Source: Acetivibrio sp. MSJd-27
Lineage (GTDB): Bacteria; Bacillota; Clostridia; UMGS1840; HGM11507
Direction: 5' to 3'
DNA length: 64,000 bases
NCBI RefSeq assembly: GCF_018918095.1
Contig: NZ_JAHLPV010000012.1
Location: 1-64,000 of the forward strand
The notes beneath the pieces were generated by a model, which worked only from the letters and a program-made list of their open reading frames with translations, had not been told where the DNA came from and did no database searches. A program made the position numbers and the translations under genes. Positions 3,132-48,879 of this stretch are shown here, piece after piece; within the stretch, counting starts at the first letter, position 1; the number at the start of each line of letters is the position of its first letter.

Positions 3132-3134
3132 GCA

Positions 3135-3176
3135 GAGAAGCTTTGCACTTTTGAATGTGCAAAGCTTCTCTTTCTC
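3135..3176. terminator. Intrinsic terminator between convergent mtnN and the surface operon
   Basis: Perfect 14-bp stem (3135-3148 with 3157-3170), 8-nt loop, followed on the plus strand by TTTCTCC. It lies between convergent genes; the T-rich side favours rightward termination, but it may serve both. Confidence 0.8.
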
Positions 3177-3179
3177 CTA

Positions 3180-6100
3180 TTAATATTCCACTAAAGTGAT
3201 ATCATCATAATAACAATCACTTACCCAGTATTCTGAGGTATAGAGATGAATTTTGATGTATGCGGCAGCCCGGTAAGTCATCGGGATAATCGACTCCAAA
3301 AGATTCCATTGCTGGGTACCTGGCTCCTCATTAAACAAGGTTCTGCCAAGCAGTGTTTTTTTGCTGTCGTAATAATAAATTCCAACACTGGTTCGTCCGC
3401 TTTCTAGATAAAGCGGTGTAAAAAGAGTATGATTTTTTGTTTTATCGATGGGAATATAGTCGCTGGCATATCCTACCGTCGCAGTCGTACTCTTATCGAC
3501 AATCTTCAGGCTTTGTTTTCCTGTGAACGCACGGTCGGTGGAAACCTGTGCGGACGTATTCTCGGTAAAGGGGGCAATAGAGGTAAAGCCCGGAACCGGA
3601 TCCGATTCGGAGAATGGTTCTTCAAAACTGCTGTTGGGTATAGAAAGAACGGTACTGTTTAGCTTATTTACCTCATTTTTTAATCTCTCCTGAACAGCCA
3701 GTCTGCTGTTTTGTTCGGAACGATCATTGTAAATGTAGAAATCAAAATAAGTTTTTATTTTTTCTGCATCTGCATCCTGAACAGATGAGAGATCGTCGCC
3801 AATGACAATCACACCGTTGTCATTCCAGTAAACCTGTTTAGAGAACGCATCAGAGACTGCCCGAAGGGGAAGAAGTGTCCGATCATCCTTTGTCTGCGCG
3901 GGGACGTCAATCGCTTTTGGCTCACCGTTTATCAGAATCTGCGATTCATTCAGAGTAACTGAAATCGTCAAGCTGTCTTTTTTCAGAGTGGCTGTCTGAG
4001 TGGCGTCATTCCAATCTACTTCCGCACCTAGAGACTCTGCAATAAATCGGACGGGGACCAGGGTACGGCCATTTTCCACAACCGGAGTTACTTTACTGTT
4101 TTGGCTGTCTATCTGTTTGATTGTGCCGTTGGAGAAGGCCAGGGAATTTCCGATAACCAAAGAGAGCTTATCAGAAAACAAATTTCTGATTTTTGCGCTG
4201 TCGCTTTTTTGATAGTCTGTCTTGCGGATAGGAAGCATCCATAGCTGCCCGCTTTTCGAGAAATAGATATTTCCATCAGACGCAATGGTCCACAGATAGG
4301 TTTCGTAACCCAGCTTATCTGTTAAATCATAGTATTCCATTGTTTCTGTGTTGACAACTTTAATCCCTTTAATGCCGGCATAGAGAAGGCCATCTTCATC
4401 AAAACGGATATAAAGCGGACGCCAGGTATGGCTGGTGGTAGAGTAAGTGTAGTCGTCAAATTTTAAAACATTGTTGACAGCTTCCGTTTCCGGATCGACC
4501 GAAAACAATGTATTTCCTGTAATAGCCCACAGTTTTCCATTTTTATCGAAAGCGACGGAACCAATCCAGCTGGGCTTATTAACGCCGGATATTTTAGGAG
4601 TAAATTCTTTTGTAAGCTGTTTTGCCGCGAGATCGTAGACAAATATTTTTGCCTGTTCCGCTACCGGTGTTGCACCCAAACCGCCCCAAATGGTAGTGGA
4701 ACCGTATATTTTGCCATCCCGGTATGCAATGCTCATGATTCCCTGCTTATCTATCAGATTGTTGACGGCTTCCATCTCTCCGGTCGCAACATCGTAAATT
4801 CCAAGAGCGCCGCCCAAAATGCCGTAAACGGGAATCGTGCCCGCGAAAATTTTTCCCTCGCCGGAGGTCATGGCAAACGGGCGATCTTGGTTTTCTCCGA
4901 TGATGCCAAGACGAGAAGGATTTGTACCGCTCAATGGAAGTGTGTGGTCATAGCGGTAAAGCTGAGCGCGGGTATAGATGCCGAAATACTGCTTTCCCTC
5001 GTATCCAAGCATTCCTTCCGGCTGGCCCAGCCCCATTGTCCTGTATTCTTTGGTGTCAAGATCGTATCGGGTGGCGGTATCACCGGCATATGCCCCGATA
5101 TACAGAGCGTTGTCACCGTTTTGATAGTCACCGTTTTCCAGAGATTGAATGGAGAAGTAACCGCCTTTTAAATCAATGTCCGTCTGCCTTAAAATCTTTT
5201 TACTCTGAACATTATAAAAGACAGGGCAGCCGGTCGAAGTATCAACTGTCACGAGTGATTCACCAGGAAAATCAGGGTTGTTTTCCAGCGTCACCCATCC
5301 GATTGCATGGGTTGTTGTGGAAACACCAAGGTCAAAATCCAGATCCTCTACTTTTCCCGTTGCCACATCGATTGCCATCAATTTATTTCTGGAAGTGAAA
5401 TAGCTTTTTCCGTTTCTGACCGGGGAGGTGTAGAGTCCGGTAAAAGTCTGCTTAAATCCGGTATCCAAAAATTTCTCATTTTTTGTATCGAATACAAGTA
5501 GGGGAGAGAGGGAATGAGATTTTGTGTACAGGGCAATTTTATCTCCGATCACAGTGCTGGTGTAAACCCATTCAATATCCTTCACCTCATAGTAGCCGGG
5601 ATTTTCCGGAATGTCATATTTCACTTTTTTGGAAGGATTTTTGGTATCAACGCGGTAGAATCCCACCAGATTATCTCCCTGCACGCCGCAGTAGAGATAA
5701 CCATCATAGTAGGAAATGGAGCGTACATAGGTTGCGCCCGGCACAAGCTGCCCCCAGTCTTCAAAGCTGTCTGTATTTTTGTCATACTTGATAATCTTTG
5801 CATTGGGGAACGTACCAATATAGATGTTGTCATTTTCATCTATCGTTGTGACAAAGGTGGCCTTTTCTCCTTCTACCATAACGCCGTATTTTTTAAACTC
5901 CTTGGTGTAGGGATTATAGCGGAAAAACAGACCGTCCGACGCCATATAGACAATTCCCTCGGAATCAACGATATGATTCCATAAGTTTTTGGCTCCCGGA
6001 GTCTCGTAAGTTGCCTCCAACTTCTGATCATCCAGATTATATACATTGAAGATACCGGGGGAGCCAGAAGCGGAGGTGTACATATAGTCTTTTCCATTTA

Positions 6101-6269
6101 CCACGCCGAACGCGGCGGAAATAACCTGATGGGATGGAATCGGTGAATTTAAATATACCGCCGGTAGATATTTGCTCTCATCAATCGTGGCCGCTGAGGA
6201 TGGGAGACAAAGGATACCCGACAGCAGGCAAACGGAAATGAAAAGGGAAATAAAGCGTTTCTTCATCAT
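3180..6269 (-). CDS. Secreted beta-propeller protein with two stalk (Cu amine oxidase-like) domains
   Basis: A 1029-residue exported protein, last gene of the leftward surface operon. A signal peptide ends near residue 26 (PSSAA-T). Residues about 40-680 form repeated strands with NHL/PQQ-like signatures (YIGTFPNAKIIKYD, VRSISYYDGYLYCGV, KIFAGTIPVYG), indicating a beta-propeller. Two stalk repeats lie at about 700-830 (NGRTLVPVRFIAES and DDRTLLPLRAVSDAF). A C-terminal module (about 870-1029, NSSFEEP...YYDDITLVEY) resembles a carbohydrate-binding jelly-roll domain. The propeller is clearly paralogous to that of the upstream gene. It overlaps that gene by 4 nt, so translation is coupled. Probably binds or recognises a glycan or partner at the envelope; no catalytic residues were recognised. 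Confidence 0.8.
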   Translation of the reverse strand: MMKKRFISLFISVCLLSGILCLPSSAATIDESKYLPAVYLNSPIPSHQVISAAFGVVNGKDYMYTSASGSPGIFNVYNLDDQKLEATYETPGAKNLWNHIVDSEGIVYMASDGLFFRYNPYTKEFKKYGVMVEGEKATFVTTIDENDNIYIGTFPNAKIIKYDKNTDSFEDWGQLVPGATYVRSISYYDGYLYCGVQGDNLVGFYRVDTKNPSKKVKYDIPENPGYYEVKDIEWVYTSTVIGDKIALYTKSHSLSPLLVFDTKNEKFLDTGFKQTFTGLYTSPVRNGKSYFTSRNKLMAIDVATGKVEDLDFDLGVSTTTHAIGWVTLENNPDFPGESLVTVDTSTGCPVFYNVQSKKILRQTDIDLKGGYFSIQSLENGDYQNGDNALYIGAYAGDTATRYDLDTKEYRTMGLGQPEGMLGYEGKQYFGIYTRAQLYRYDHTLPLSGTNPSRLGIIGENQDRPFAMTSGEGKIFAGTIPVYGILGGALGIYDVATGEMEAVNNLIDKQGIMSIAYRDGKIYGSTTIWGGLGATPVAEQAKIFVYDLAAKQLTKEFTPKISGVNKPSWIGSVAFDKNGKLWAITGNTLFSVDPETEAVNNVLKFDDYTYSTTSHTWRPLYIRFDEDGLLYAGIKGIKVVNTETMEYYDLTDKLGYETYLWTIASDGNIYFSKSGQLWMLPIRKTDYQKSDSAKIRNLFSDKLSLVIGNSLAFSNGTIKQIDSQNSKVTPVVENGRTLVPVRFIAESLGAEVDWNDATQTATLKKDSLTISVTLNESQILINGEPKAIDVPAQTKDDRTLLPLRAVSDAFSKQVYWNDNGVIVIGDDLSSVQDADAEKIKTYFDFYIYNDRSEQNSRLAVQERLKNEVNKLNSTVLSIPNSSFEEPFSESDPVPGFTSIAPFTENTSAQVSTDRAFTGKQSLKIVDKSTTATVGYASDYIPIDKTKNHTLFTPLYLESGRTSVGIYYYDSKKTLLGRTLFNEEPGTQQWNLLESIIPMTYRAAAYIKIHLYTSEYWVSDCYYDDITLVEY

Positions 6270-8257
6270 TCTTCCTCCTTGCAGATAGAAATTTTGTATA
6301 GTTTTGCATCAATACTGTAATATAAATTTTGATCCGAACCAATGGTAAACAACGGAACATTATTGCCGGTATAAGCCTGCAGATCAACAAATTCCAAAGT
6401 TTCCGGATTGATTATTTTAATGCCTTTAATATTCGTGTACAGATATCCGTTCTGATCAAAACGAATATAAGTGGGTCTCCACACATGCTGATGAACATTA
6501 TAAGGATATTCCCCGAAGGATAACTGTTCCATTTGTTCCAGTGTTTCAGGATGCAGACGGAAAAGAGTATAACCGCTCACCGCCCAAAGTCTTCCTTCTG
6601 TATCAAATTTTATCTGACCGATATGAAGAGCTTTTTTATCATTAGGAAGATGGAGCGTTGCCTGTGCAAGGAACTGTTCCGTCTCCGGATCATAGCAGAA
6701 GATTTTTGCTTCCTTCTCAACGGGCACAGACCCAAGGCCTCCGTGAACCGAAGTGGAACCGTAGAGACGACCGTTATGGTAAGCTAGGCTAATGATGCTC
6801 TGATTTTTTATCAAGCCGGGAAAACTTTTTTTCTGTCCCGATTCAACATCATAGATACAAAGGCAGCCATTATGCAGGCCGTAATAGGGAATTGTACCGA
6901 TAAAAATTTTTCCGTCCGCGGCCTCCAGTGCAAAGGGGCGGTCCTGCATTGCCTCCACTCTTCCGAGATTTTTTGGATTGTCGGAGGTTTGCAGATGATG
7001 GCAATCATATTCATACAGCCACGCATGAGGATAAACACCAAAATATTGTTTTCCGTGATAGAAGATGGAACCTTCAATCTGCCCGATGGAGATATCCTCA
7101 AACACCCTTTTCTTTAAATCATACCGAACAGCGATGTTTCCGGCGTAGGAGGAGAGATAGATATCATCCTCTCCTCCATTTTCCATGCATTGGATCAAAA
7201 ACTTTGAGCGGTCCATGCGCGGCAAAATGATGGAATGGTATTCTTTTCGATTCGGATATAAAGCGGTTGGTGTGCAGTTTCCGTGCCCTGTGATAATCAA
7301 TGCTTTTTCATCCGGGTAAAGAATCTTTAAATTTAGCCAGCCGCTGGCGCAGAGCTCATCGTTTTCTTTCATTTCTATGCCGCAGTCGCTCCATTTCAGG
7401 CTTCGGGTGTCCAACTCCCATAATTTGCAGTCTGAAATAAAATAGGTTTTATGACAATAAGGCACGGAAGTGTAAAGCCCTTTCAGTTCACCTCGGAAGC
7501 CAACATCTGCGAACTGCTCTCTCTTTGTGTCATACACCAAAAGCAGGGAACGGTTTTTGATTTTCACATGCAGCATCAAAAGATCATCTGCCATGTTCAT
7601 CGTGTAAATCCAATTTAACTCCTCCGGGCAAAAATATCCTTCGATGAAGGGGAGAGGAATGCATTTCTTTTCTTTGGGATTTTCAGCATGGATACGGTAG
7701 AGCTTTGCCACATCATTCCCAAAAGTGCCCGCATAGATATAGCCGTTGTGACAGGCAATGGAACGGACGTACTGGGCATCCGAATCCACAGTCCCCAAAT
7801 CCTCAAACATTTCTGTTTTAGTGTCAAAACGAATGATTTTTGCGTGAGGATACGAACCAATATAAAGATAATCGTTTTCATCGATGTCCATCACAAAATT
7901 GCCGGTTTCTCCGGGAAAGTAAGTCCCGTACTTTTTAAATACCGCCGTATAAGGGTTGAAGCTGAAAAAATAGCAATCCGATATAAAATACACAATTCCT
8001 TTGGAGTCAATTTTGTGAATCCAGGTGTTTTTTCCTCCGGTCGTTTCAAAGGAGGAGATAAGCTTCCGCTCATCCAAATCATATACGCAGAAACGACCGG
8101 GCATTCCGGAAAAAGTGGTGTACATGTAATTTGTCCCGTTGATCTGCTGGAATACCGAATGGATGATTTGATTGGAATTCAACGGTTCAGCGATCCATTC
8201 GGGCGCGGAATAATTTAATTTTGTCAAACAGCTTGTTGTAGTGGTATGCATGCTCAT
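6266..8257 (-). CDS. Beta-propeller protein without signal peptide, paralogue of its neighbour
   Basis: A 663-residue protein composed almost wholly of the same propeller as the downstream secreted protein. Corresponding stretches include FNPYTAVFKKYG versus YNPYTKEFKKYG, DENDYLYIGSYPHAKIIRFD versus DENDNIYIGTFPNAKIIKYD, and ICIYDVE versus LGIYDVA. It lacks a recognisable signal peptide, transmembrane segment, stalk domains and the C-terminal module. It overlaps both neighbours by 4 nt (ATGA type). It arose by tandem duplication, most simply with loss of the flanking modules. As written it would stay in the cytoplasm, odd for a member of an operon of exported proteins; a missed upstream start does not help because the frame lies against the preceding gene. 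Function unknown. Confidence 0.78.
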   Translation of the reverse strand: MSMHTTTTSCLTKLNYSAPEWIAEPLNSNQIIHSVFQQINGTNYMYTTFSGMPGRFCVYDLDERKLISSFETTGGKNTWIHKIDSKGIVYFISDCYFFSFNPYTAVFKKYGTYFPGETGNFVMDIDENDYLYIGSYPHAKIIRFDTKTEMFEDLGTVDSDAQYVRSIACHNGYIYAGTFGNDVAKLYRIHAENPKEKKCIPLPFIEGYFCPEELNWIYTMNMADDLLMLHVKIKNRSLLLVYDTKREQFADVGFRGELKGLYTSVPYCHKTYFISDCKLWELDTRSLKWSDCGIEMKENDELCASGWLNLKILYPDEKALIITGHGNCTPTALYPNRKEYHSIILPRMDRSKFLIQCMENGGEDDIYLSSYAGNIAVRYDLKKRVFEDISIGQIEGSIFYHGKQYFGVYPHAWLYEYDCHHLQTSDNPKNLGRVEAMQDRPFALEAADGKIFIGTIPYYGLHNGCLCIYDVESGQKKSFPGLIKNQSIISLAYHNGRLYGSTSVHGGLGSVPVEKEAKIFCYDPETEQFLAQATLHLPNDKKALHIGQIKFDTEGRLWAVSGYTLFRLHPETLEQMEQLSFGEYPYNVHQHVWRPTYIRFDQNGYLYTNIKGIKIINPETLEFVDLQAYTGNNVPLFTIGSDQNLYYSIDAKLYKISICKEEE

Positions 8258-11031
8258 TCTCCTTGATAGGGATTGTGTATCAGCTGCGGAAGTGGATAGG
8301 CTCCCTCTTCCTCAACTGTCCAAAGCTTTTGTTCTTCCGGCAAACTGGAGTCCAGATCCAGAAATGCATGTGTCAGTAATTCTGCAGTTGTTTCCGTCAC
8401 ATTGGCGACAGCATTTGTCTCCTCGGCTGTTTTGATGTAGTACACGTTTGACGCTGTAATATTGGCAGGATTCATTGCGGAAACCGCAAATTTTGTTCCG
8501 GTTGAGGAGGCATTATAACAGTTTGTTACCGTTACTTTCCCAGAGGGATTTGCGATAAAACCAGCACTGCTTTTTCCGGGAAAGGCACCCGTATTAAAGG
8601 TATTCTCGATAGCTCCGCTGTCCGCGCGGCATACAATTCCACCGATAAGATAGGTTCCGTCTGTACCGGATGTATTGTAGCATTCGGTGATTTTTCCGCC
8701 GGTAAGCCGGCCCGCGATCCCCCCGTACTGAGCGGGAGAGACCTGAGATGCCAAATTTGCGCTTCGGGATATAACAGAAGAAGCATAGGCGGTTCCGGTG
8801 ATTCCTCCGATGAAATATTTTGAGTTGTATGCAGTTTGAATGCTGCCTCTGACCGTCAAATTGGATACCTCTGTATTTTTTGACAGCTGTCCGATTAAAC
8901 CGCCGATTTGTCCTGCTAGCGAATTTGTCGGCGTGCCTGTAATAACGGTGGCGTTCACTTCCGCTGTTTCCGAAGCGGAACATCCGTCTAATCCGCCGGA
9001 GGCATAGCCGGTGATGCCGCCCAGGTACAAAATCATGCCCTGGTTACAGGTAGAAGAAAAATCACTCTGTATTTTCCCCGTATTGACGCAGCCGGTCAGC
9101 ACAGCGGAGTTGTTTCCGCAGATACCGCCTGCAAAACAGTTGGCTGCCATATGATTGTCGTTGGTTGTCCACACCGTGCCGCGGTTTTCACAAGCGGTAA
9201 GCGGCGCTTTTGTCTGTCCGCAGATACCGCCGATCATCCCTGCGCTGCTCTGGATTTTCCCGGTGTTGATACAGTTTTCCATCGTTCCGGCTCCTTCAAA
9301 GGAACCGGCGATTCCTCCTGCATAAGCGCCGTTCTGAATGCTGTCTCCTGTCACGGTAATATCGGCTTCATTTTCACAGTTTATGATGTCTGAACTGATA
9401 GCGAGTCCTGCGATTCCCGCAGTGTGCGTACCGGTGCTCTCTATACTTCCCGCAATTTTTATTCCTTCCACCTTTGCACCGTTTATCCGGCCGAATAGAG
9501 AGGCATACTGTGTTCCATTTTTCAAATGGAGGGTGATTTCCGCCCGTTCAGAACCGCTTCCGTTCCGGTAGCTTCCCGAAAAGGGGACTCCGGTGGCTTC
9601 AGAGAGAGGCATATAATCCTCCGGAAGGGAAAAGTCCGCAATCTGAATGTAGTGATAATCCATATGTTTTTTGATGTTGTCAAAGTGCTGGGCGGTTGCG
9701 ACCTGATACGGATCTTCCGCAGAACCGTTTCCGCCTGCGAAATAGGACATTGTTTTGTCAAAGATCGTTGTCTGACGTCCCAGAGCATTTTCCAGAATTA
9801 CGGTGTATACATAGTCCTCAGCTTCCTCGCCTTGCTGAACATAGGCAGTGACGTCAAAAGGACTTTCCGCTTCCGTCAGTGACCATTTATTTCCTTCTGT
9901 TAAGATAGTTAGATGCTTTGCGGCACCGCCTTCCCAGTTTAAAAGAAATTTCATCTCATTGTAATCGTAACTTGCCTTCAGCTGTAAGTCTGCGGTATTC
10001 AAAAATCCATTTACATTCAAATCGAGGCTGCTCAGGGCAGAATAATCGGAATCGGTGTAGCCGGAAGAGGCATTTGCTTTTACTTTTACAGAGAAGGTCA
10101 GAGATTCCTCCGTTGTGTTTTCACAGATCTCTTTTAAAATTTCATTTAAATCGCTTGAAAGCTCTTGGGTAGAAATTGTTTTTTCGGTGTCTCCGCACCG
10201 GAAAACAAGATCATAACTGTCTGCGTTTTTGACTTTTGACCAATGGACAATATAATCGTCGCCCAGTTTTAGAATGTTTGGAGAGGAAAGCTGTTTATTT
10301 TGTGGTTTGGAGCTGCCGCCGGAAGAACCGCTGCTGCTTCCGCCTGTACTGACAGACACGCCGCCCATTCCGGCTGTATTTCCCATGTTAGAGGAAGTCG
10401 GTGTCGGTGTGGGAGTAACAGCGGGAGAGCTTGAGATATTATAGAGGGCAATTGCCTTTTGCGAAAGAGTAAAGGCCTCCGCTCTGGTGACGAACTGATT
10501 CGGAAGAAAACTGCCGTCTGCATAGCCGCAAATAATTTTCTTCTGAGATAAAACGGAAACAGCTTCTTCGGCCCAATCGGGAATATCCGATTGGTCGGTA
10601 AAGAAAAGGGGAGAGTCAGACGTCTGTGACGGTTTCAAAATGCGGTATAATATCACAGAGATTTCCGCTCTTGTCAACTGTCCTTCGGGATTTGCATTGC
10701 CGGATGCGTCACCGGATAAGTAGCCGGCATTTTTTGCGGCAGAAAATTCATTTTCATACCAGCTGCCCTTTTCAATGTCAGGATAATTTTCCGCTGTGGG
10801 CTGATCGAACCCAAACAGTCGATTTGTAATTTTTACAAATTCGCAGCGGAGAATGGATGCATCCGGATGGATGTCACCGTTTTCATCGCCATTCAGCACG
10901 TCTGCCTCAATCAGGGTTTGAATGGATTCCTGTGCCCAATGCCCCTCATAATCGGAAGCGGACACGGCAAAGGGAAGGGTACAGAGGAAAAAGATCCATG
11001 CGGTGACTGTTGCGGTTATTTTTTTGTTCAT
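8254..11031 (-). CDS. SLH-domain surface protein with GLUG-like repeats
   Basis: A 925-residue exported protein. The start at 11031 follows GAGGAGG by 7 nt; the longer frame to 11052 covers that site. The signal peptide ends near AVSA-SDY (about residue 25). Three SLH repeats (about 26-195; HWAQESI, WYENEFSAAKNAGYLSGD, WAEEAVSVLSQKKIICGYADG) anchor it to secondary wall polymer. A Pro/Thr then Gly/Ser linker (about 205-245) follows, then a fibronectin-like segment and about eight GLUG-like repeats (GGIAGSFEGAGTMENCINTG, GGICGQTKAPLTACENRG, GGITGTAYASSVISRSAN) that should form a beta-helix, as in adhesins. Likely an anchored adhesive or glycan-binding stalk of the surface complex encoded by this operon. 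Confidence 0.85.
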   Translation of the reverse strand: MNKKITATVTAWIFFLCTLPFAVSASDYEGHWAQESIQTLIEADVLNGDENGDIHPDASILRCEFVKITNRLFGFDQPTAENYPDIEKGSWYENEFSAAKNAGYLSGDASGNANPEGQLTRAEISVILYRILKPSQTSDSPLFFTDQSDIPDWAEEAVSVLSQKKIICGYADGSFLPNQFVTRAEAFTLSQKAIALYNISSSPAVTPTPTPTSSNMGNTAGMGGVSVSTGGSSSGSSGGSSKPQNKQLSSPNILKLGDDYIVHWSKVKNADSYDLVFRCGDTEKTISTQELSSDLNEILKEICENTTEESLTFSVKVKANASSGYTDSDYSALSSLDLNVNGFLNTADLQLKASYDYNEMKFLLNWEGGAAKHLTILTEGNKWSLTEAESPFDVTAYVQQGEEAEDYVYTVILENALGRQTTIFDKTMSYFAGGNGSAEDPYQVATAQHFDNIKKHMDYHYIQIADFSLPEDYMPLSEATGVPFSGSYRNGSGSERAEITLHLKNGTQYASLFGRINGAKVEGIKIAGSIESTGTHTAGIAGLAISSDIINCENEADITVTGDSIQNGAYAGGIAGSFEGAGTMENCINTGKIQSSAGMIGGICGQTKAPLTACENRGTVWTTNDNHMAANCFAGGICGNNSAVLTGCVNTGKIQSDFSSTCNQGMILYLGGITGYASGGLDGCSASETAEVNATVITGTPTNSLAGQIGGLIGQLSKNTEVSNLTVRGSIQTAYNSKYFIGGITGTAYASSVISRSANLASQVSPAQYGGIAGRLTGGKITECYNTSGTDGTYLIGGIVCRADSGAIENTFNTGAFPGKSSAGFIANPSGKVTVTNCYNASSTGTKFAVSAMNPANITASNVYYIKTAEETNAVANVTETTAELLTHAFLDLDSSLPEEQKLWTVEEEGAYPLPQLIHNPYQGE

Positions 11032-11035
11032 TTTG

Positions 11036-14000
11036 TTACCTCCTCTCATCATTAATCACAAAAAATTGATCTGCTTTGAAGTCGCTGTGCTTTAAAACAA
11101 TCAGGCTAGCCCCGGTTGTATTGTTTGAATTGGACTGTACTGCCACAATATCATTGAAGGTGCCGGTACGAATCTCTAATTTTCCTTCTTTGTCAATCTG
11201 TATCAAGGGGAACTGCATGCCGGTGATACTGAAAATCTGTTCAATATAGCTTGTGGGATCACCAAGATCCACATCGGAGACCTTTGCGCTTCCCAGAAGA
11301 ACGCTCAGATTACTTCCTTTTAAGGAATTGCAGTAACCGACCGCCATTCCATAGTTGTTGGTAAAGCCTGCATAATACAGCCTCTCGTCAAAAGGCATTC
11401 CGTACATTCCATATAAAACAGAGGAATAAAGCAGCATAGAACTGGTCGGATACATTGGTGCGGAATAGGACTCCGTGAGATTGTCAAGATGAAGCACCCG
11501 TTCCAGATGGGTGAGTTTTCCGTCCTGCGCAATGACACGGATCATATCGCCCTCTTTCAGAGGGGTGACCGCTTTTCCATAAGGCGTTGCATCTGCTTGG
11601 CATCCCTCGATCAAAAAACGATAGAAGCAGAGAATATCATCCAAATCTGCTGTTGCACTGTATTCGTCTGTTCCGTTCATCGTATAGTAAATTTTTGTGA
11701 TGATTTTTTCCTTCTCCGTATCATATACCTGAGTTTTCTTTTTGAATATGTACATCGGGTAAGAAGCCGCATAGGGAACCTTTCCATAATAATAGGTATC
11801 CGTTCTGCCCCGCAGGATAACAAGACCTGCGATTCCGGTTTCCGGATCAATGTCATATCCCTGTATGTCATAGTTTATCATATTTGACAGGGAGTTGGAA
11901 TACATGACCTGATAATTTTCGTCCTTCAAAGGCATTTCATACAGTTTGGCCATAGCTTCTTCCGGTGCGCGGTTCAGATTGGCGTTCTGTTTGTTGGTAG
12001 CATATTTCTGCCATACGTCAAAGCCGTATACATCTACGTCAGGAACATTTAGGATCACGGTATCAGAGGTGAGATAAAAGCGTCCTTCAATGGAGACGCC
12101 CTTGGTCGTTTTTGTATCGCCTGCGCGGGGACTGCGGTATCCGGCCTTCAGCGCCTTTTCATCTTCTGTTTCATTTTTGCTGTATTTAATATGAGTCTGG
12201 GAAGAATAAAAAGTGAGCTCACCGTTATCCGGTTCGTTCGGCGTATCGGTATCAATTCTAGTTACCATATTATCCGAATTGATATCGACGATCACTGGAC
12301 GGGATAAGCTGGACACTGCTTTGGCTCCCTCCGGCCGTGTTTTCAAACGCGTCAAAGCTTCCTCCGCGTTTTTACAGCGGACGCCGTCAACTGTGACGGA
12401 ATCTCTTGCTTCCAAAGTAAGAACTTCGCCGTCTTTGGTGAACAACTTTAAATTCAGGGTATCACCGAAGGAATCCTCCAGCTGGGCGCCAATGAGATAA
12501 GCATAATTTTTTGCAGTTGTTGCAGCGTTTTCCGTATAGGCAATTTTTCCGGTGCAGTCCAAATAAAAGGTTGCATTCTGTCCGAAGGAGATCTGTTCAA
12601 TCAGGGTCTTTTTTATAGAAAGCAGACTGTTTGATACCTCATAACCTTTGTCGTCCACATAGATTTCTCTCTCAGCGGGAGACGCGGATGTGACGGTGCC
12701 GGATGCTGTGACCGACGAGACAGTCAGATAATAAAAATCTTTGCCGTCAATTTTTTCCGGCGACTGTGCAACCGAGACAATATCATTCTTGTTCAAATCC
12801 CGCAGCGTGGAATATCCTTCGCTCATGATAAAACGGAAGGAGGCATCCTTGTCGTTGAGATCCAGATTTTGAGAAGGATTCAGCCGGCAATTGATAAAAA
12901 GGTCGTCCTCGTCCGCCAGGTCCACAACAATATTGCGTGATGCGCCTTTTTGCCCATCATAGAGGTTGAAACTGATGATTTCAATAAATTCCGCTTTGTT
13001 ATTTTCGTTTAATACCGCGCGGATAAGACCGTCTTCCGGAACCAGTTCGTTCCAGTTGTAATGGACCAGGTGAACGCCGTTGAGTACAACAAAAGGCGGC
13101 TGCTGGCCAAAAGAAACCTTCTGGTATTTTCCGCTGTCCTTTTCCGGCTCATACTCCAGATAACCAGATGTGACGCCGATAACCCAATCTGCGTTCAAAA
13201 GAATTTCCTGTGTGTTTTTGTGCAGGGAGTAATAAATAACTTCATTTCTTCCGGTTTCTTCATTGTATTTAATGAATGCCTTTACACGGCAGCCCAAATG
13301 ATTTGAGATATCCGTTTTCCCAGTATAGGCAGTAATCCGGTCGGAAGTTTTGACATCCGTTAAAACCACTCGCTCCGGATCGGAGATACTGACTCCTTCC
13401 ATGGAAACCAGACCATTGTCAATAATCGTTGCATCGTATTCCAGAATACCCAGACGTTCCGAGAGAATATTTTTTGTTTTTTCGATCTCGACCTGGATTC
13501 CACTATTACTGACAGAGTCAATGGATACCAAGTCAGCGAACAGGGCATTGTAGAAAAGCTTTGCCATAATACTGCCGGTGATTTTTTCACTGGAGAGATC
13601 CACGCCTTTGGTGATTCCGGCTTCCCTTGCAATGACATAATAGCCGCTGGGATAACCGCCGTAAGCATTGGCGTATACCGTATAACCCAGAACATTTACC
13701 AGCATGGCAACGGCTTCCGGCATTGTGATTTCCCGATCGGGATAAAAATTATTTTCGTTGTCGCCGTTCACAACATTGATGTCGCGGCAAGCCTTGATAT
13801 ACGGGTAATAGGCGTGTGTGGACGGAACGTCCGCAAAAGGGATGCCCTCATAATTTCCCGCTGTTGAGAAGTCCACATGGGGGAACATCATTAAGGCCAG
13901 TAATTTCGTAAATTCTCCTCTTGTTTTGGAAGCGGTCAAATCAAAAGAGCCGTCTATCACGCCGATTGATTTCAAAAAGCCGGCTTCCATTGAGAATGGT

Positions 14001-14104
14001 AAGGAAATCGCTTGATCATCCGCAGTCTCTTCCAATGCAATTCCCGGTGAGAAACAGCCGAATAAGAGGCTGACTGCCAGAAGAACGGCAAAACTCTTTT
14101 TCAT
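11036..14104 (-). CDS. Large SLH-domain S-layer-type protein
   Basis: A 1022-residue exported protein. The ATG at 14104 is chosen because AAGGAGG lies 8 nt upstream and the signal peptide then starts correctly (MKKSFAVLLAVSLLFG). A longer frame to 14164 would only add residues overlapping the preceding gene. SLH-like repeats occupy roughly residues 45-205 (KTRGEFTKLLALMMFP, FADVPSTHAYYPYIKACRDI, DREITMPEAVAMLVNVLGY), more divergent than those in the next gene. The remaining 800 residues are beta-rich with repeated aspartate/valine segments, as in clostridial S-layer-like proteins, and contain no enzyme motif I recognise. Gaps of 1 and 4 nt to its neighbours show operon membership. Confidence 0.8.
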   Translation of the reverse strand: MKKSFAVLLAVSLLFGCFSPGIALEETADDQAISLPFSMEAGFLKSIGVIDGSFDLTASKTRGEFTKLLALMMFPHVDFSTAGNYEGIPFADVPSTHAYYPYIKACRDINVVNGDNENNFYPDREITMPEAVAMLVNVLGYTVYANAYGGYPSGYYVIAREAGITKGVDLSSEKITGSIMAKLFYNALFADLVSIDSVSNSGIQVEIEKTKNILSERLGILEYDATIIDNGLVSMEGVSISDPERVVLTDVKTSDRITAYTGKTDISNHLGCRVKAFIKYNEETGRNEVIYYSLHKNTQEILLNADWVIGVTSGYLEYEPEKDSGKYQKVSFGQQPPFVVLNGVHLVHYNWNELVPEDGLIRAVLNENNKAEFIEIISFNLYDGQKGASRNIVVDLADEDDLFINCRLNPSQNLDLNDKDASFRFIMSEGYSTLRDLNKNDIVSVAQSPEKIDGKDFYYLTVSSVTASGTVTSASPAEREIYVDDKGYEVSNSLLSIKKTLIEQISFGQNATFYLDCTGKIAYTENAATTAKNYAYLIGAQLEDSFGDTLNLKLFTKDGEVLTLEARDSVTVDGVRCKNAEEALTRLKTRPEGAKAVSSLSRPVIVDINSDNMVTRIDTDTPNEPDNGELTFYSSQTHIKYSKNETEDEKALKAGYRSPRAGDTKTTKGVSIEGRFYLTSDTVILNVPDVDVYGFDVWQKYATNKQNANLNRAPEEAMAKLYEMPLKDENYQVMYSNSLSNMINYDIQGYDIDPETGIAGLVILRGRTDTYYYGKVPYAASYPMYIFKKKTQVYDTEKEKIITKIYYTMNGTDEYSATADLDDILCFYRFLIEGCQADATPYGKAVTPLKEGDMIRVIAQDGKLTHLERVLHLDNLTESYSAPMYPTSSMLLYSSVLYGMYGMPFDERLYYAGFTNNYGMAVGYCNSLKGSNLSVLLGSAKVSDVDLGDPTSYIEQIFSITGMQFPLIQIDKEGKLEIRTGTFNDIVAVQSNSNNTTGASLIVLKHSDFKADQFFVINDERR

Positions 14105-14105
14105 G

Positions 14106-15683
14106 TTATTTTCCTCCTTGCTCCTTGTCGTATTCTTCCTGTGACTGATTGTATATGTTAACAATTTCGGATGCTCCCATTGTTTCTGCTTTGGTCAGCC
14201 ATTCCCTCCAGGCGCTGTCACCGGTTTTGCTGCCGAGAATATAGTTGGAGAAAAATTCGCTGGCCGCTTTCCGCAGGTTAGGCATTTTGTCGTTGATAAC
14301 TTCTTTTTGCTCGTTGGTGAAACGAAGAATCGGATCGGCAGGTTCGAAGATGTTATCCTTTTGTGCAAAATTCTGTGCCTCCTGTTCCCGTTCGCTAAAA
14401 ATATAATAATTGCTGTTCCGATCAAACCGGCGGTACATTCCGTTTACATACATTCCGTATTTTTGTTCTAAATCGGTAATGTTGGGGTTTTTGTCCGGAT
14501 ATTCTATGTAGTTTGCTTTTCCATTTTCGTCCAAGCTGTAAGTTACGCCTTCCTCACCCATTGTCATTAGTTTTGCTCCTGCGGGAGAGAGCATAAAATC
14601 GGCTAGCTGTAATGATAGTTCCGTATTTTTATTGTTGGATACCGCGATTCCCCCGGTTACCTTGGGAAGTGTGATAAGGGTTCCTTTCGGTCCAATGGGA
14701 TAGCCATAGCGCAGATCATAATCCGGCGTTGTTTTTCTTGCCTCCTCTGTGAAGCTGTCCAGCCTGCCAATCCAGTCGAAGGTGGTGAACGCTTTGTCTG
14801 CCTGTGTCATCTTTGAGGTCCAGGCGGATTGGGTCAGCGTCAGAAATTCTGGGTCAATCAATCCTTCCGTATAGAGCTTTCTCAAAAAATCCAGCATATC
14901 TTTCATTTTGGGATCGGTATCAGAATACTTCCAGGTTTTCTCTTCCTCATCATAATAGGGACTGTTGGCAACAATTCCCCAACTGGTTCCGAGATGGGTA
15001 AACAGCGTGCTCTGGTTTTTGGAGGTGAACGGAGTGGATGCGGGATACAGCTCCTTTAATTTTTTTAGGTTTTGATAAAATTCTTCCTGATTTGTCCAGG
15101 GAGTTATTCCGTGCTTGTCAAAAACGTCCTTCCGATATAACATACCGTGATTGACGTCCCGATTGATATCATAGGATGGGAGGACATACAGATGTCCGTC
15201 GTTGGCTTGGTACGAGGTGAAAATCCACTTGTTTTCGGGGTTATCTGCAAAAATAGATTTAAAATTCGGCATGATGTCCAGTTTGTTATCGACAGAAGCG
15301 AATGCTCCCTGCACAGCCAAATCATTGATCTGCTCGTTGTTTCCAAAACCAGCCCCCACGATATCGGGCAGTTTCTTTGAGGCGGCGAGCACCTTGATTT
15401 TTTCCTGTATCGTAGAGGTTGGGTATGCATCAATTTGTACATTGACACCTGTTATTTCCTTCAGCTTCTGGTGGACAAAGAGCTCATTCAGATTAGAAAT
15501 GCTGGAAGACACTGCCCAAGTAATCGTTTCATTCTTACTGGTAAGCGGCAACTTAAGCCCTCCGGTATCGCCCACGTCGCTTGTACCTATAGAATGCTGC
15601 GTATTTGCATTCTGCTGTTTGTTGCAGGATGCCATTGAAATTATCGTTATGGCACACAGCAAACCACATATCATTCGTTTCAT
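14106..15683 (-). CDS. Extracellular solute-binding lipoprotein (ABC sugar/oligosaccharide type)
   Basis: A 525-residue lipoprotein and first gene of the operon. The lipobox I-S-M-A-S-C puts the lipid-modified cysteine at residue 20. The body matches family 1 solute-binding proteins of the LplA kind (N-E-LFVHQKLKEITGVNV, PDIVGAGFGNNEQINDLA, WTNQEEFYQNLKKLKELYP, C-terminal LRKAASEFFSNYI), usually for oligosaccharides. AGGAGG precedes the start. The usual LplB/LplC permeases are absent on both sides in this window. It either borrows membrane components encoded elsewhere or serves as a surface receptor together with the SLH and propeller proteins. The ligand is unknown. Confidence 0.85.
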   Translation of the reverse strand: MKRMICGLLCAITIISMASCNKQQNANTQHSIGTSDVGDTGGLKLPLTSKNETITWAVSSSISNLNELFVHQKLKEITGVNVQIDAYPTSTIQEKIKVLAASKKLPDIVGAGFGNNEQINDLAVQGAFASVDNKLDIMPNFKSIFADNPENKWIFTSYQANDGHLYVLPSYDINRDVNHGMLYRKDVFDKHGITPWTNQEEFYQNLKKLKELYPASTPFTSKNQSTLFTHLGTSWGIVANSPYYDEEEKTWKYSDTDPKMKDMLDFLRKLYTEGLIDPEFLTLTQSAWTSKMTQADKAFTTFDWIGRLDSFTEEARKTTPDYDLRYGYPIGPKGTLITLPKVTGGIAVSNNKNTELSLQLADFMLSPAGAKLMTMGEEGVTYSLDENGKANYIEYPDKNPNITDLEQKYGMYVNGMYRRFDRNSNYYIFSEREQEAQNFAQKDNIFEPADPILRFTNEQKEVINDKMPNLRKAASEFFSNYILGSKTGDSAWREWLTKAETMGASEIVNIYNQSQEEYDKEQGGK

Positions 15684-15750: not shown

Positions 15751-15779
15751 AGTATATAATGGGCTCTTTCGTTTCACAA
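15751..15779 (-). promoter_or_regulatory. Predicted promoter of the surface operon with overlapping inverted repeat
   Basis: On the minus strand TTGTGA (15779-15774), 17 nt, TATACT (15756-15751), about 68 nt before the lipoprotein start. The -35 box lies inside an inverted repeat GTTTCA-7 nt-TGAAAC (15771-15789), a plausible operator for a repressor. Confidence 0.55.
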
Positions 15780-15818: not shown

Positions 15819-15848
15819 AAAAAGAGCCGCAGCATTTTGCCGCGGCTC
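15819..15848 (-). terminator. Terminator-like hairpin upstream of the surface operon
   Basis: Stem GAGCCGC (15824-15830) with GCGGCTC (15842-15848), 11-nt loop, followed on the minus strand by TTTTT. No leftward gene lies upstream before the divergent ligA. It may be an attenuator of a longer leader, or the leftover terminator of a lost gene. Confidence 0.55.
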
Positions 15849-15855
15849 CAATCTA

Positions 15856-15870
15856 TTGAAACGGTTTCAA
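15856..15870. promoter_or_regulatory. 15-bp palindrome, LacI-family-like operator
   Basis: TTGAAACGGTTTCAA is a perfect palindrome around a central G and resembles LacI/CcpA-type operators (TGAAA..TTTCA arms), although a true cre site has one more central base. It stands between ligA and the surface operon; the related arms GTTTCA/TGAAAC recur at 15771-15789. Confidence 0.4.
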
Positions 15871-48793: not shown

Positions 48794-48879
48794 GGTGCCG
48801 CTGGCCGGAGTCGAACCGGCACGGTATCGCTACCGGCGGATTTTGAGTCCGCTACGTCTGCCAATTCCATCACAGCGGC
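48793..48879 (-). tRNA. tRNA-Leu (anticodon CAA)
   Basis: An 87-nt class II tRNA on the minus strand, with CCA encoded. The acceptor GCCGCTG pairs with CAGCGGC and the discriminator is A. The anticodon stem GCGGA/TCCGC encloses loop CTCAAAA, giving anticodon CAA (reads UUG). A long variable arm (GGTAGCGATACC) and the T arm GCCGGTTCGACTCCGGC are clear. tRNA-Leu reading UUG is a target of the MiaA/MiaB modification encoded in this window. Confidence 0.97.

Follow-up and report, generated by a model that had tools for sequence, protein, structure and literature searches.

The first 64,000 nucleotides of contig NZ_JAHLPV010000012.1 of Acetivibrio sp. MSJd-27 (GCF_018918095.1), referred to here as the window, contain a minus-strand operon of five large genes (Table 1) that raises the question of what its products do together: a solute-binding protein (SBP) lipoprotein, an S-layer homology (SLH) protein (S2), a second SLH protein with GLUG motifs (S3), a beta-propeller without a signal peptide, and a secreted beta-propeller. 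A preliminary description of this DNA proposed these five product types in tightly packed genes; all five open reading frames were confirmed, head-to-tail with successive gaps of 1, 4, 2, and -4 nt, and the product types stand. None of the five proteins receives an informative name from NCBIfam, and the Pfam family scan from which their domain calls are taken found no hydrolase, lyase, or permease among them, as had also been stated. Our analysis suggests that the operon is probably one cassette of a multi-copy, S-layer-based system for the capture and uptake of glycans.

About two dozen cassettes, paralogous to one another and including this operon, are present in this genome (G000; a draft of 3.05 Mb in 104 contigs, with 98.8% completeness). 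The counts given here come from genome searches together with the stretches read; about 60 neighbourhoods were read and their operons called. G000 encodes 27 full-length propellers (plus two contig-edge fragments), 24 S2 proteins, and 14 close SBP paralogues at >=39% identity, gene 1 included. The same five components recur at locus C11 in the order SBP-S2-S3-secreted propeller-signal-less propeller, that is, with the propellers swapped, and cassettes without an SBP occur in a sister genus (G003) in the orders propeller-S2-S3-propeller-propeller (G003 C13) and S2-S3-propeller-propeller (G003 C10). Two other Clostridia (G036 and G068) carry LplB-YtcP-SBP-propeller-S2-SLH as one gene run. When the S2 genes of G000, G003, and one G036 locus are taken together, a further SLH protein is encoded in the operon of 28 of the 32, a propeller in that of 14, and an SBP in that of 12. 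Because the cassette recurs as paralogues in G000 and in other genomes, the grouping of these genes goes beyond chance; the preliminary description had named a lack of cotranscription and of joint conservation as what would refute it, and the genes are found together at C11, at the G003, G036, and G068 loci, and in the S2 operon counts. Regulators are linked to sibling cassettes at C11 (AraC) and C13 (LacI). An integrase-core (rve) gene (L052:6266-7180) precedes a propeller gene and may mark a route of cassette spread.

Genes 4 and 5 encode paralogues (42% identical) whose propeller region has no Pfam family over threshold. The gene 5 model is confident (predicted local distance difference test score [pLDDT] 90.3, predicted template-modelling score [pTM] 0.85), with about 55 strands over residues 38-679, and the region is read from the model as 14 blades in two seven-bladed propellers. 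In fold comparison, one chain with seven blades matches about 280 residues scattered across 35-681, and this spread suggests that the two ends of the region come together to close one of the propellers. The comparison rows (Z about 27-28, root-mean-square deviation [rmsd] mostly 2.5-3.0, about 280 residues) consist of generic seven-bladed propellers and are uninformative on function, and no Pfam or PDB sequence match was found between the propellers and the polysaccharide lyase (PL) families PL11, PL22, PL24, and PL25. Behind the propellers, the C-terminal beta-sandwich that had been described as a binding-like module is present; the plural stalk domains reduce to one Cu_amine_oxidN1 match.

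In an alignment of 82 propeller sequences drawn from Clostridia, Bacilli, and Actinomycetes, residues Q416, Y432, and R463 are invariant, Q461 is kept in 98%, Y181 and Y290 in 95%, and E418 in 91%; gene 4 retains the equivalents of all seven. By this alignment Q416/Y432/R463 resembles an active site or an obligate ligand site, and it is possible, at somewhat less than even chances, that the propellers have enzymatic activity. A signal peptide is missing from six propellers encoded at S2 operons (gene 4, two at G003 C13, and those at C11, C3:45.8 kb, and G003 C10); in gene 4 one could be fitted only by overlapping the preceding gene, whose end is 2 nt away. The signal-less label requires at least 6 changes on the tree, and the gene 4 group is separate from the C11/C3/G003-C10 group; signal-less propellers are accordingly placed by the tree as having arisen more than once beside secreted paralogues. 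The two kinds adjoin at four operons, secreted and signal-less partners falling in one small clade at C12 and G003 C13 (100% support) and more weakly at C11 and G003 C10 (84%), and a similar pair is present in Paenibacillus sp. 32O-W (L127_9, L127_10). Cysteine makes up 2.0-3.2% of the propeller part in five of the six signal-less proteins at S2 operons, versus a median of 1.05% in secreted propellers; the difference has p 0.011 when all eight signal-less members from Clostridia are included. Such enrichment is what cytosolic proteins would show, and the gene 4 product is probably cytosolic.

The propellers could instead be non-catalytic lectins, the secreted copy capturing glycan and the cytosolic signal-less copy sensing the ligand and regulating the cassette or metabolism. 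This alternative, which we consider rather unlikely while giving it weight, would agree with the best Foldseek matches of gene 5, the propeller sensor domains of hybrid two-component system (HTCS) sensors such as Bacteroides BT4663, with the SLH or binding-like modules carried by some family members, and with the lack of a sequence match to known lyase families. However, the Pfam scan detects no DNA-binding, kinase, or membrane domain in the signal-less copy, and invariance of Q416, Y432, and R463 with near-invariance of Q461 across three groups of bacteria appears to exceed the level usual in lectins.

In S3 the SLH domain is found by Pfam as three stretches; in S2 Pfam finds a single repeat, and the trimer is recognized by structure comparison of a model of middling quality (pLDDT 77) with SpaA-SLH (6cwh; Z 17.7, rmsd 2.8, 149 residues). 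The beta-barrel chain of S2 has no confident PDB match, and OB-like relatives for the barrels were set aside, since the weak matches obtained (Z 7.5 and lower) are not evidence of relationship. Of 391 genomes sampled from the class, 174 have S2 relatives, the best-scoring copies in other families being mostly solitary; pairing with another SLH protein is therefore a feature of this lineage, and the idea that it is a property of all S2 was rejected. Many families of the class carry S2 as a lone gene of about 860 aa (L163-L177), perhaps the ancestral form of the cassettes. By our reading of the search rows, about 16 genomes of the class match the propeller proper and not just its stalk unit, far fewer than have S2. 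A scan of named genomes, which used a tighter propeller alignment since a first broad one was too divergent, located relatives in Paenibacillus, Bacillus and kin, Erysipelothrix, and Actinomycetes; SBP, LplB, and YtcP genes lie near propellers in Paenibacillus selenitireducens, contaminans, nasutitermitis, cisolokensis, and sp. 32O-W.

These distributions bear on the view that the cassettes are S-layer variants in which S2, S3, and the propellers form an interchangeable lattice or coat for adhesion or protection, the SBP being incidental. S2 is indeed widespread in the class and often a solitary SLH gene, SLH proteins are very numerous in G000, and several S3 proteins show SLH and GLUG alone. 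The SBP genes in 12 of the 32 S2 operons, the lyases or GH20 in others, and the association of propellers with sugar transporters in Paenibacillus too nevertheless make this view unlikely. The adhesion complex offered in the preliminary description as one of two inferred functions gained no specific support; the other, surface glycan capture, is supported by the type of SBP, its linkage to LplB/YtcP elsewhere, and CAZyme (carbohydrate-active enzyme) and F5/8 C domains in sibling operons. As a separate matter, at least 150 SLH matches were counted in the 3-Mb genome, some in open frames of >3,000 aa.

Gene 1 matches SBP_bac_8/1 in Pfam and, as judged by its nearest solved relatives, Smon0123 and AlgQ1/AlgQ2, belongs with the AlgQ/Smon0123 class of SBPs that bind oligosaccharides; the sequence match has E about 1e-26 and covers about 440 residues. 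Smon0123 binds unsaturated chondroitin disaccharides (PMC5430744). Its stacking Trp284 (residue number in the solved structure deduced by adding 17 to the index) corresponds to W304 in gene 1, which is kept in 21 of 22 sequences, and its ligand contacts Arg204, Arg322, Arg393, and Glu410 correspond to Lys, a gap, Glu, and Tyr; because these contacts are not conserved, glycosaminoglycan (GAG) specificity is not claimed. Sibling loci supply further indications of the ligand: downstream of the SBP sharing 76% identity with gene 1 lies an SLH-anchored PL8 lyase, another SBP likewise has a PL8 after it, and sibling operons encode heparinase II/III-like domains (seven proteins over two tallies), DUF4962 (five), and the glycoside hydrolase (GH) family GH20 (three), together with GH3, SASA, and F5/8 C domains. 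The PL8, heparinase-like, GH20, and F5/8 C domains lead us to favour uronate or hexosamine polymers as the ligand class, with no single polymer named; host GAG is not established, because no sulfatase or GH88/105 was found over cut-off in G000.

A locus dedicated strictly to host GAG (hyaluronan, chondroitin, or heparan) would account for the kinship of gene 1 with Smon0123, for the PL8 lyase beside a sister SBP, and for the heparinase-like and GH20 neighbours. PL8 and heparinase-like folds act on other uronate polymers too, however, and the lack of a sulfatase or GH88/105 over cut-off and the unconserved contact residues weaken this explanation to the point where we consider it quite unlikely.

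How an oligosaccharide might enter the cell from a cassette that has no permease is suggested by the distribution of transporter genes. With the LplB of the G036 cassette as query, G000 yields only three relatives, at C18 (65%), C3 (48%), and C1 (40%), the last two adjoining SBPs divergent from gene 1 (23-29% identical); LplB relatives for G036 number 27. The C18 pair (L153:9439-11368), the sole close LplB/YtcP in G000, adjoins an SBP and a 752-aa AraC-type regulator, and this SBP is sister to that of the C11 cassette within a clade of 26, nested among cassette SBPs. G000 thus has 14 close SBPs versus one cognate LplB/YtcP pair, among 11 BPD_transp_1 permeases in the whole genome, and G003 has about nine such SBPs versus one cognate pair, at C21, standing alone with no SBP in the 13 kb read. 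On the strength of these counts, most cassettes probably share the C18 LplB/YtcP as a hub importer. That a permease for each SBP exists and is merely missing from the 104-contig assembly is very unlikely, given its 98.8% completeness, the total of 11 permeases, and the same imbalance in the sister genus.

In the proposed mechanism, S2 and S3 would be anchored in the wall by their SLH domains and would assemble into a surface scaffold that captures glycan, with the variable part, which probably faces the glycan, residing in S3. Outside the cell, the secreted gene 5 propeller may bind or process the glycan; the SBP lipoprotein would then pick up released oligosaccharide and hand it to the ATP-binding cassette (ABC) permease LplB/YtcP encoded at C18, which would be common to many cassettes. 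The signal-less propeller (gene 4), with the same conserved residues, may act on or sense the imported oligosaccharide in the cytosol. Several observations weigh against this reading: no CAZyme Pfam family is present in the five operon proteins, the Arg and Glu contacts of Smon0123 are not retained in gene 1, G000 shows no sulfatase or GH88/105 over cut-off for standard host-GAG catabolism, two of the eight signal-less Clostridial propellers are low in cysteine, and the sharing of the permease rests on counts in a draft genome. Cassette and import taken together, we still hold the reading to be somewhat probable. A fuller version can be advanced only tentatively and may well fail in one part or another: that the propellers constitute an undescribed glycan-degrading double-propeller family whose site is Q416/E418/Y432/Q461/R463, that they have divided repeatedly into one copy at the surface and one in the cytosol, and that they serve a hub-and-spoke import network whose cassettes, a dozen or more, each give an SBP to one shared ABC permease.

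A search of the accessible literature identified no described SLH-propeller system and no Monoglobus SLH system. One close parallel is the Gram-positive polysaccharide utilization locus (PUL), with which the cassettes have in common surface glycan proteins, SBP-dependent ABC import, and AraC or LacI regulators beside some siblings. In contrast to such loci, most cassettes here have no permeases and many have no recognized CAZymes, possessing instead the S2/S3 pair and propellers. ABC permeases encoded with the SBP are absent at the operon and present in G036 and G068; a CAZyme in the locus (at least one) is likewise absent by Pfam at the operon and present in several siblings. The operon works like a Gram-positive PUL, yet it is not filed as a member because its own permease, CAZyme, and regulator are all absent locally. 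The Smon0123/AlgQ SBPs with their LplB/YtcP-like permeases agree with it in SBP family, stacking tryptophan, and permease type, and differ in the GAG-contact residues, not conserved here, and in the ratio of 14 SBPs to one cognate permease pair.

In the pneumococcal Ami system AmiA, AliA, and AliB share AmiCDEF, so that several lipoprotein SBPs supply one permease, as proposed here; Ami, however, handles peptides with few SBPs, whereas here there are a dozen or more SBPs, mostly within or beside surface cassettes. Bacteroidetes genomes contain many paralogous, presumably substrate-specific, SusCD-type PULs, similar in the multiplicity of surface cassettes and unlike the present system in that here there is no outer membrane or TonB transporter, with SLH wall anchoring and ABC permease import in their place. 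HTCS sensors such as BT4663 also have tandem beta-propellers, but identity is about 14%, and gene 5 has no kinase or regulator domain, just a stalk unit, helix, and beta-sandwich after the propellers. S2 (from its model) and S3 (by Pfam) each resemble other SLH-anchored wall proteins in having an SLH trimer.

Bacteroidetes handle many glycans with SusCD cassettes; glycan handling by wall-bound, S-layer-bearing Clostridia is poorly described. G000 suggests a Clostridial answer made up of SLH pairs, an unnamed propeller family without a Pfam entry, and many SBPs per importer. If this is true, it provides a candidate enzyme family, a clear test case for SBP-permease sharing on an unusual scale, and a guide to the annotation of many genes now called "S-layer homology domain-containing protein" in Clostridial genomes.

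Table 1. Coordinates, in window positions, of the operon genes and flanking elements
Feature	Position	Strand	Description
Gene 1	14106..15683	-	Solute-binding lipoprotein, 525 aa, AlgQ/Smon0123-like; lipobox ...SMASC
Gene 2 (S2)	11036..14104	-	Signal peptide, SLH trimer (~residues 34-192), then string of small beta-barrels
Gene 3 (S3)	8254..11031	-	Partner of S2: signal peptide and three SLH repeats, then a variable part rich in beta structure and carrying GLUG motifs
Gene 4	6266..8251	-	Signal-less double beta-propeller, paralogous to gene 5; 16 Cys beyond residue 40
Gene 5	3180..6269	-	Secreted propeller (~residues 35-683), Cu_amine_oxidN1 match (724-819), long helix, C-terminal beta-sandwich
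Candidate sigma-70 promoter	15751..15779	-	TTGTGA-N17-TATACT, ~70 nt 5' of gene 1; consensus match alone
Intrinsic terminator-like hairpin	15823..15849	-	5' of candidate promoter; 12-bp stem, then T-run
Perfect 15-nt palindrome	15856..15870	.	TTGAAAC-N-GTTTCAA, between ligA and candidate promoter; possible operator
Perfect inverted repeat	~3132..3167	.	GAGAAGCTTTGCAC...GTGCAAAGCTTCTC, between operon and convergent gene; likely bidirectional terminator

With all operon genes on the minus strand, candidate 5' elements lie at higher coordinates. The S2 start was taken as the ATG at 14104, an upstream TTG not being chosen, and gene 4 may start at an ATG at 8251 or 8257. Transcription from one promoter, as previously proposed, is plausible only; a candidate is present, yet the consensus scan gave 39 sites versus 25 expected by chance. 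The 5'-side genes are ligA and gatA/gatB, with no regulator linked to the operon. The hairpin was rejected as a shared leader (only three other operons of the set have a similar one, and none is an SBP/S2 cassette), and the palindrome was rejected as a shared operator, not being found upstream of sibling operons; the region of both has no Rfam match at gathering level. The sole Rfam match in the window is a tRNA gene (48796-48879, minus strand).

Two other protein families recur near propellers. Paenibacillus propeller loci repeatedly encode members of one family (L096_8 [L096:7045-8412], L101_6, L105_8, L105_10, L120_8, and L127_5); the member scanned, L096_8, has a GntR DNA-binding domain fused to SBP_bac_1 and may be an oligosaccharide-sensing regulator. 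FAD_oxidored (PF12831) proteins are found beside propellers in Clostridia, Bacilli, and Erysipelothrix (L064:10084-11334 and L100:3592-5187), with further relatives in L104, L112, L115, L117, L124, and L126.

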